Assembly (NCBI RefSeq): GCF_029490015.1
Contig: NZ_CP120468.1
Span: 2,790,001-2,854,000 of the forward strand
Source: Halobaculum limi
GTDB taxonomy: Archaea > Halobacteriota > Halobacteria > Halobacteriales > Haloferacaceae
Direction of reading: 5' to 3'
DNA: 64,000 bases
Part shown: positions 9,956 through 11,619 of the stretch, one piece after another
Position numbering within the stretch: the stretch's first letter is position 1
Layout: the number at the start of each line of letters is the position of its first letter
Position numbers and translations under genes: made by a program
The notes under the pieces: generated by a model
What the model saw: only the letters and a program-made list of their open reading frames with translations
Databases searched by the model: none
What the model was told of the DNA's origin: nothing

Positions 9956-11029
9956 TCAGTCGTCGTCGCCGGTGGACTGCGCTTCGGTCTCTTCGCCTCG
10001 CTCGCCGGACGTGATCGGTTCCGAGCGGTCCTCGGCGAAGCCAGCCGACCCCTCGATACGCTCTTTCGCCTCGGGATCGAACCGCGTCTCGATGTCTTGG
10101 TAGCGGTCGACGAACGACAGCGCGTGGTGGCTCTCGGTCTCGTGGCCGATGTAGCGCTCTTCGAGGTCGAACTGCGCCTGTTCGTCGTTCTCGGCGATGT
10201 TCTTCATGTCCTCGTAGACGGCGTGTGCGCCCGAGTGCAGGGCGTACAGCGTGATGAACTGGTACTTATAGCCCAGGTCGCCCAGTTCTTGGAAGGTGAG
10301 CGGGTCCTCCTCGGCGCCCCACTCGAACGACGAGGAGTAGTTGAATGCCAGGTCCAGGTCGGGGTGCGTCTCGTGGATGGTCTCGGCGTACTCGACGGCG
10401 TCCTCGCGGCTGGGGTCGGGCATCTCCGGCCAGACGAGGTCGACGCCCGCGTCGGCGTAGATACGCCCGCGTTCGAGGTGCTCCTCCCAGTCGCCGTTTG
10501 CGGATCCGTAGGCGTCCGTCCGGGCGATGATGACGGTGTCCTCGCTCTGCTTCGCGTCGACGGCCGCCTCGAACCGCGAGCGAGCCTGCTCGCGGGAGAC
10601 GATCTGCTTGCCCGCGATGTGCCCGCAGCGCTTGGGCGTGGTCTGGTCTTCGATGTGGATGGCGGCGACGCCGGCCTTCTCGTACTCGCGGACGGCGCGG
10701 CGGACGTTGTGGGTACCGCCGTAGCCGGTGTCGCAGTCGGCGATGACTGGGAGGTTCGTCGCCTCGACGATGCGTTTCGCGTTCTCGACCATCTCTCGCA
10801 TGCCGACCATCTCCAGGTCCGGGAAGCCGAACTGCCCGAGCACCGTCGAGTAGCCCGACATATACGCGGCGTCGAGGCCGGCCATCTCCGCGAGGCGGGC
10901 GTCGAGGGCGTGGTACAGCCCCGGTGCGAAGACGTAGTCCTGTTCGTCCAGCATTCGGCGCAGTTCGCGGCCCTGCGGGTTGTCGATGTCCTTCGTGAAG
11001 ACGTCCTGGTCGAGTTCTGAGGGGTGCAT
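9956..11029 (-). CDS. aceA: Isocitrate lyase
   Basis: A 357-residue enzyme cleaving isocitrate into glyoxylate and succinate, the first step of the glyoxylate bypass used for growth on acetate or fatty acids. It has the active-site loop KRCGH at residues 133-137 with the catalytic Cys135, the metal-binding DCDTGYGG segment (residues 99-106) and IHIEDQTTP. The length is well below bacterial AceA (about 430) but normal for the haloarchaeal/short form. Its ATG shares one base with the stop of a 75-codon frame upstream, suggesting coupled translation. No malate synthase gene is in the window. Confidence 0.92.
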
Positions 11030-11256
11030 CAGTCTGAATCCTCCATGAGCGCGAGTTCGAACGGGTCCCGGCGGCGGCGCTCGGCGCAGTCACGGGTCGT
11101 GTCGGTCGGCGTGTCGGTGCGGTCTGAGCGGGCTGTCAGTGGTCGGACGTCGGGAACGAGCGGGGCGTCCGTCTCGTCGTTCCCGGTCCGTGAGTTGGGG
11201 CGTCGAGTCGGACGGGTCGAGTTTGGCCCCGTTCGCGTGGGAGCGCGACGGCTCAT
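11029..11256 (-). CDS. Small basic/Pro-rich ORF coupled to aceA, 75 residues
   Basis: A 75-residue frame (start [11 protein letters not shown], end [16 protein letters not shown]). It is low-complexity, rich in Arg, Thr, Pro and Asp, probably disordered, with no recognisable domain. Third codon positions are mostly G or C, as in neighbouring genes. Its start overlaps the stop of a 29-codon frame (ATGA), and its own stop overlaps the aceA start by one base. This tight chain is the main reason to call it translated. It could be a regulatory leader cistron rather than a stable protein; I do not recognise the family. Confidence 0.45.
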
Positions 11257-11342
11257 CGGTCGTCGGCCTCCGTCGAGAACAGGCTCAGTTGTCGCGAGTC
11301 GATTTCGTCGAGGTCGGTGTCTGGATTCGGGTTGAACGTCAT
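11253..11342 (-). CDS. Micro-ORF at the head of the aceA unit, 29 residues
   Basis: A 29-codon frame starting MTFNPNPDTDLDEIDSRQLS. The peptide is acidic, and codon choice looks coding (mostly C or G endings). Its stop overlaps the start of the 75-codon frame in an ATGA arrangement, and that frame in turn overlaps aceA. It is about 130 bases downstream of the AT-rich promoter region. It may be a small protein or a leader peptide that controls entry of ribosomes into aceA. I do not recognise a homologue. Confidence 0.4.
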   Translation of the reverse strand: MTFNPNPDTDLDEIDSRQLSLFSTEADDR

Positions 11343-11619
11343 GTGGTGTGGGTCGGTGGTGTGGGTGGAGTCGGCGGGTGGTGCGTGGTCTGAGCGGTCG
11401 GTGCGTGGGATACTGCCGCGGATGCGTGGTGGTGTACTACCATATTTCGTCGCCTCATCTCCCGAAAATCGGAGGATGCACATAACTGTAATGATTGATA
11501 ATGATAATATTCTATAATCCGTTTTACGGGTGGATATCCCCTTAATTGTCAGACAGTACCACACCCGTCCGGACGAGGAACCGACACGCCGATACGTCGG
11601 CCCTCGAAGCAGGAGAACG
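11343..11619. promoter_or_regulatory. Divergent promoter region between aceA unit and crcB
   Basis: A 277-base region with a markedly AT-rich core at about 11,480-11,525 (containing gataatgataatattctata). The core offers TATA-like sequences on both strands, so one region can serve the aceA unit on the minus strand and the crcB pair on the plus strand. A short AGGAG lies just before the crcB start at 11,620, one of the few Shine-Dalgarno-like sites in the window. Confidence 0.5.

Follow-up and report, generated by a model that had tools for sequence, protein, structure and literature searches.

A haloarchaeal family of small APLVP-motif proteins linked to isocitrate lyase, with a candidate role in the glyoxylate shunt

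Small accessory and regulatory proteins of metabolic enzymes are already known. CP12, a small and mostly disordered protein of photosynthetic organisms, carries short conserved modules and regulates GAPDH and phosphoribulokinase. In enteric bacteria, the aceBAK operon encodes AceK, a large enzyme that serves as isocitrate dehydrogenase kinase/phosphatase. CsoS2 and EPYC1 are multivalent disordered linkers of carboxysomes and pyrenoids, respectively, in which repeated short motifs bind a metabolic enzyme. To our knowledge, it is not known how haloarchaea control the isocitrate branch point. Here, we analyzed a 64-kb stretch (hereafter, the window) of the 3.48 Mb genome of Halobaculum limi, in which two small open reading frames precede the isocitrate lyase gene aceA. 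The second of these frames belongs to a protein family which, together with its putative two-site, cis-or-trans form, is new as far as our searches go.

The preliminary description of this locus reported two micro-ORFs chained by start-stop overlaps before aceA, and we confirmed the coordinates and both junctions. The three genes form a chain on the minus strand in the order ORF1 (29 aa), ORF2 (75 aa) and aceA (357 aa), and the features of the locus are as follows.

11253..11342, minus strand: ORF1, 29 aa, putative first microprotein of the chain; present at 10/10 Halobaculum loci, pN/pS 0.47
11029..11256, minus strand: ORF2, 75 aa, assigned to the family of small APLVP-motif proteins
11146..11175, minus strand: conserved 10-residue motif within ORF2, pN/pS 0.02
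11032..11067, minus strand: conserved 12-residue C-terminal box of ORF2, pN/pS 0.09; also encodes the GGAGG preceding aceA
9956..11029, minus strand: aceA, 357 aa, encoding an isocitrate lyase of the short type (PEP mutase/methylisocitrate lyase-like)
11489..11512, minus strand: conserved upstream element GAATATTATCATTATCAATCATTA, a probable operator beside the promoter

ORF1 and ORF2 overlap by 4 nt (ATGA) at the junction CCGATGAGCC, and ORF2 and aceA overlap by 1 nt (TGATG) at the junction GACTGATGCAC. A GGAGG lies 10 nt before the ATG at both the ORF2 and the aceA start; none was seen in the 30 nt preceding ORF1. We scanned both strands of the window for chains with ATG starts, consisting of two frames of 20-110 aa and then one of at least 300 aa, joined by 1- or 4-nt overlaps. 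ORF1-ORF2-aceA was the sole match, listed twice because a second, upstream ATG at 11483 lies in the frame of ORF1. The aceA product matches the Pfam families PEP_mutase (1.9e-34) and ICL (1.8e-31); the best relative with a solved structure is a methylisocitrate lyase. The small frames had been said to show haloarchaeal codon use, a claim that proved weak, with GC3 values of 0.77 and 0.76 against 0.91 in aceA; GC2 is 0.66 in ORF2 and 0.40 in aceA. The evidence that the frames are coding comes instead from comparison between genomes.

To this end, we compared ten Halobaculum loci, including that of the window. Both frames are conserved among these close relatives, as the preliminary description had anticipated for genuine genes, each being present at all ten loci. 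ORF1 keeps its 29 codons without indels, and the length of ORF2 differs by whole codons. Within ORF2, third positions vary in nine of the ten motif codons and second positions in none (pN/pS 0.02). The C-terminal box is similarly constrained (pN/pS 0.09), the linkers are near neutral (0.81 and 0.68), and aceA has a value of 0.13. Judged by this substitution pattern, ORF2 is a drifting chain with selection on short peptide motifs, although part of the conservation of the C-terminal box may serve translation initiation, since the box also encodes GGAGG. The ATGA overlap between ORF1 and ORF2 is identical at all ten loci, and ORF2 and aceA share 1 nt at nine of the loci and 4 nt at the tenth. A start overlapping the previous stop, the arrangement that defines a translationally coupled pair, is thus found in the window and in nine congeners. 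We infer that the frames are translated, and the translation of ORF2 and aceA is likely coupled, making both proteins together.

We then examined how far the small gene extends beyond Halobaculum. From 148 Haloferacaceae genomes, all 90 loci with a close aceA (at least 76% identity) were taken. A small frame before aceA contained the motif under a strict pattern at 82/90 loci, and five further loci carried a degenerate version (EAPLCPDL in four and TGLPAVP in one), giving 87/90. The other three loci (L064, L073 and L082) had no such frame preceding aceA. A second sample comprised the best 80 of 138 named relatives, with species partly common to the Haloferacaceae sample, and a motif frame preceded aceA at 51 of these 80 loci (47 strict and 4 degenerate). 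Combining both samples yielded 105 distinct sequences with 157 motif copies, leaving out L078, which has two motif copies and exceeded the length limit. The motif core was strongly conserved among the 157 copies (A in 152, P in 155, L/I/V in 154, V in 150 and P in 155). The residue preceding this core is usually D, E or G, and the core is usually followed by D, T or F and then L or I. ORF2 shows the features by which we define the APLVP family, namely xAPLVPx[LIV] in a small frame linked to or found with aceA.

When the linked-gene label was placed on a tree of AceA from 80 loci, it required 2 changes, compared with a mean of 23.8 for shuffled labels. The gap to aceA was measured in 100 distinct linked cases: 59 overlapped the aceA start (48 by 4 nt and 9 by 1 nt), 6 lay no more than 35 nt from aceA, and 35 were farther away, largely the Halorubrum form with its intervening frame. 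A profile of the Halorubrum type matched 25 of the 148 family genomes, and all 25 possess aceA. On a Haladaptatus plasmid, RefSeq annotates a hypothetical protein (EEEAPIVPIV) that overlaps aceA by 4 nt. In Haladaptatus caseinilyticus (L273), the small gene, aceA and aceB occur together on a 607-kb plasmid. We also searched the genome of the window for further motif-type frames. The APLVP codon pattern gave 16 matches versus 30 for its reversed control, and a looser P-x-V-P-[DE] pattern gave 12 versus 5. The only match resembling a family member (in frame, by eye) precedes aceA, so by these patterns the genome has the linked copy only.

The malate synthase gene aceB was considered as an alternative anchor; the Haloferax aceB product matches Pfam HpcH_HpaI. 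Among the 47 strict-motif named loci, a close malate synthase (at least 74%) was nearby in 16, only a relative of about 28% identity was present in 11, and none was found in the examined flank in 20. We rejected aceB because the small gene is found both with and without an adjoining malate synthase; by gene order, it is linked to aceA, not aceB. At several loci lacking a close aceB match (L112, L118, L121, L122, L123, L125, L129, L136, L139, L148 and L186), the gene just 3' of aceA encodes a protein with about 28% identity to the aceB product of Haloferax. Strict Shine-Dalgarno matches occurred at 31/101 linked versus 5/32 unlinked aceA starts, a difference too weak for argument.

The 105 proteins were assigned to architecture classes by simple pattern rules, with boxes matched loosely. 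Two motifs without a coil were found in 50 proteins, among which two chance-SHR proteins are counted, and one motif with a heptad-like coil in 33. Two proteins combined two motifs with a coil, and 20 paired one motif with another box (a 10-residue box in 16 and an SHR box in 4). Under these rules, none of the 105 had a single motif without a second element. The conserved segments were again under stronger constraint than the rest of the protein: pN/pS was 0.27 and 0.03 versus 0.69 for the remainder in the Halorubrum type, 0.13 for both motif and coil versus 0.41 in Haloferax, and 0.00 and 0.19 versus 0.59 in genus g24. The proteins of the family are about 45-136 aa long, have no recognised domain and are probably disordered.

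Additional small frames differ between lineages. A homologue of ORF1 with a 4-nt overlap was present at all three loci of genus g16 (L035, L038 and L042), and none was found in L037, L040, L050 or the other loci read outside Halobaculum and g16. Halorubrum-type loci (L013-L034) have a different second frame, VPMAGTGxGPRPDPTTF, situated between the APLVP frame and aceA and overlapping the APLVP frame by 4 nt at 21 of the 24 loci checked. Additional frames thus seem to have joined the chain independently in these lineages.

Subsequently, we searched for the family in genomes without a linked gene. Pattern searches in eight such genomes, using a looser pattern in one, revealed small two-motif frames such as ...EPMVPEMP...DGG...DAPLVPDLS, in which the second motif is C-terminal. 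A profile built from five of these stand-alone frames, from two genera that both possess aceA, matched 13 of 17 searched genomes without a linked gene versus 1 of 20 with one. That lone match in the linked set is the linked Halorubrum gene itself, which ties the linked and stand-alone forms together. Halomarina halobia is one of the four genomes that the profile missed, and such a frame is present there by eye (L190). Neither form was detected by pattern and profile searches in Halococcus (2 genomes) or Salinibaculum (1). Together with the loci L064, L073 and L082, these cases without the small gene indicate that AceA does not strictly need the protein. The neighbours of stand-alone genes were varied and showed no evident common theme by eye. 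In one Halorientalis genome (G149; L197 and L200), a gene for an ATP-type PEP carboxykinase is preceded by two tandem two-motif stand-alone genes.

We analyzed the co-occurrence of the stand-alone gene with aceA in one family (86 genomes, hereafter the tested family), some of whose genomes are incomplete. The gene was present in 34 of 45 aceA-positive and 0 of 41 aceA-negative genomes (Fisher p 1.4e-14, with genomes that are not independent), a few of the 34 matches lying within long open frames. Counted by genus, it occurred in 10/12 with aceA versus 0/10 without (p 1e-4), and at E 1e-5 or better in 29/45 versus 0/41 genomes. One genus of the tested family includes a member lacking both genes (G408, 99% complete). 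The profile found no match in 11 of the 45 aceA-positive genomes, including all four of genus g80, and because it derives from two aceA-positive genera, distant forms in aceA-negative genomes could be missed. In an order-wide sample of 243 genomes, with fewer candidates scored per genome, 98 had aceA and 15 had a match to the stand-alone profile. Fourteen of these 15 were aceA-positive, the exception being G288, with a weak match (E 6e-4) inside an open frame of 169 aa. Families having the linked form are represented among the 84 aceA-positive genomes that gave no match.

The linked and stand-alone genes also resemble each other upstream. Upstream of aceA, 137/170 haloarchaeal loci from several families carry a match of at least 20/24 positions to the 24-nt AT-rich element GAATATTATCATTATCAATCATTA, followed by an A/T box; in the window (11512..11489), 170 nt separate the 5' end of the element from ORF1. 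We scored 26 stand-alone promoters, some of them near copies, with a 14-position matrix of the right half without the A/T box. Fourteen of the 26 exceeded the 99th percentile of 392 controls (rank test p 9e-12), as did 14/26 against 132 AT-rich controls (p 8e-7), and 13/26 did so when the A/T box was included. The full 36-position matrix placed 1/26 above the 99th percentile of all controls and 0/26 above that of the AT-rich controls, which indicates that the left half of the element is not common to the stand-alone promoters. Ten of the 14 half-elements lie 47-55 nt before an in-frame ATG; in the other four, the ATG used for the measurement was not in frame or was probably not where translation begins. 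From this resemblance, aceA and the stand-alone genes may be co-regulated. By eye, a stretch like GATGGCAGTA(C/T)CC also looked conserved across genera in the region separating the element from the first frame, for instance at L074, L084 and L092.

Database searches assigned no Pfam or NCBIfam family at cut-off to the two frames of the window or to nine relatives; weak Pfam matches below cut-off were confined to the Haloferax and Natrialba forms. The stand-alone profile found nothing better than E 0.59 in the PDB, and a search of viral contigs for more distant aceA relatives found none. The literature searched held no description of the frames; it lay mostly outside subscription journals and did not extend to the original Haloferax ace operon papers, where an earlier mention is possible. 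We utilized AlphaFold to model two natural read-through polypeptides in which a small frame is joined to aceA, examining confidence and secondary structure. The motif had a pLDDT below 50, AceA itself was modelled with mediocre quality (pTM = 0.64 and 0.57), and there was no confident docking. Confidence was low over the small-protein part except for one helix in the Haloferax form, with just 2 and 5 alignment rows there.

Taken together, the sequence comparisons leave the family itself well supported. ORF2 would represent, in Halobaculum, a haloarchaeal family whose small, low-complexity members contain [DEG]-A-P-[LI]-V-P-x-[LIV] once or twice. The gene lies between the aceA upstream element and aceA in Haloferacaceae, Natrialbaceae, Halobacteriaceae and Haladaptataceae, usually overlapping the aceA start, so that both proteins would be made together; in another family it is a stand-alone gene, preceded by a similar half-element in about half of the cases. 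We read the family as trans-acting proteins of the glyoxylate shunt rather than as cis leader peptides, since unlinked members occur only with aceA in the tested family and selection falls on peptide motifs. The suggestion in the preliminary description that the glyoxylate-shunt operon contains two unannotated small proteins is therefore supported by protein-level purifying selection, by cross-genus conservation and by stand-alone relatives found only in aceA-positive genomes of the tested family. Its other suggestion, leader-like control of aceA through the first frame, is disfavoured: among the loci read, ORF1 was seen only in Halobaculum (10/10) and g16 (3/3), and the widely conserved part is the motif of the second frame, which has relatives far from aceA.

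As for mechanism, the tight coupling points to AceA as the partner, with isocitrate dehydrogenase as the main alternative. The motif may dock on isocitrate lyase itself, and since each chain has a second site, which is either another motif or a coiled coil or other conserved box, the protein could bridge or cap AceA oligomers. Such bridging or capping might tune the activity, assembly or turnover of AceA, with ORF1 as a candidate lineage-specific second partner peptide. We regard this mechanism as roughly an even call. The complete reading, in which ORF1 and ORF2 encode small proteins and the ORF2-type family is dedicated to the glyoxylate shunt with APLVP docking on AceA and two-site action, is put forward tentatively, at a shade below an even chance. 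A broader version has about an even chance of being right: the shunt would be controlled by a family of disordered two-site microproteins that dock via APLVPD on either isocitrate lyase or isocitrate dehydrogenase and act as bridging or switching partners, and the gene would have moved between a coupled cis form and a trans form that share part of a promoter element.

Several other explanations need to be weighed against AceA docking. The shunt protein may act on another enzyme, of which isocitrate dehydrogenase is the best candidate; by binding, the protein would achieve what the kinase AceK does in enteric bacteria, slowing the competing branch in favour of isocitrate lyase. The observed co-occurrence is with a shunt gene, and control of the branch point is needed only where aceA exists, so the phylogenetic profile suits this explanation, and the stand-alone copies, about half with the half-element, fit a trans regulator as well as they fit an AceA subunit. 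The very close tie to aceA, whose start is overlapped in 59/100 linked cases, speaks against it, and we consider it unlikely. Somewhat less probable still is a small protein that regulates transcription, stability or localisation in an acetate regulon, for example by binding a protease or the regulator of the shared element. The half-element common to aceA and the stand-alone copies fits that case, as do the two tandem copies upstream of PEP carboxykinase in one Halorientalis genome; however, the other stand-alone neighbours have no evident theme by eye, and the family resembles no known family or domain above cut-off.

A purely cis role, in which translation of inert peptides opens or feeds the aceA start, draws on the same start-stop overlaps. 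These occur in 59/100 linked cases, in 10/10 Halobaculum loci for ORF1-ORF2, at 1 or 4 nt in all ten for ORF2-aceA, and in a similar two-frame chain with 4-nt overlaps at 21/24 Halorubrum-type loci. A leader would not be expected, however, to show amino-acid selection on short motifs rather than over the whole frame, as in the mid-protein motif (pN/pS 0.02) set between near-neutral linkers and away from the stop codon. Cis-only action also predicts no unlinked relatives, yet these were found in 13/17 genomes without a linked gene, and the GGAGG of aceA would itself allow independent initiation. Moreover, a Haloferax volcanii aceA deletion regained growth when aceA was supplied in trans (PMC7746861), which shows that aceA can be expressed and work outside its native chain. 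We therefore judge a cis leader or coupler distinctly improbable. Chance is scarcely credible as an explanation: GC-rich haloarchaeal DNA is full of spurious frames (85 of at least 20 aa in about 7 kb), but this chain is the sole one of its kind in the window, and cross-genus conservation with motif-level selection speaks against accident.

Overall, these results point to an accessory protein or regulator of the glyoxylate shunt across many haloarchaea. Operon position, phylogenetic profile and a partial promoter element all connect the family to isocitrate lyase, which makes it a direct candidate for control of the branch point. It also exemplifies a gene family with members that are coupled within an operon in some lineages and stand alone in others, having apparently switched between these states. 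More generally, short-motif microproteins outside family libraries may be findable through codon-level selection combined with phylogenetic profiles.

Compared with described systems, the APLVP family is similar in part to each. Like CP12, its members are small, probably disordered and built around short conserved modules, and they are candidate regulators of a metabolic enzyme. Unlike CP12, they are linked to isocitrate lyase, and the Pfam/NCBIfam searches, which involved no direct sequence comparison with CP12, gave no CP12 match. As with AceK, a candidate regulatory gene is located inside a glyoxylate-shunt operon, but the kinase/phosphatase domain is absent, ORF1 and ORF2 being 29 and 75 aa long with no domain found. 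In placing ATGA and TGATG overlaps before the gene of an enzyme, the locus recalls leader peptides and translational coupling, whereas the APLVP family has conserved protein motifs and stand-alone members away from the gene that a leader would regulate. CsoS2 and EPYC1 offer a further parallel in the probably disordered chain with short motifs, enzyme binding being putative in our case; APLVP proteins carry just one or two motifs and are known here from sequences, not from shells or condensates.
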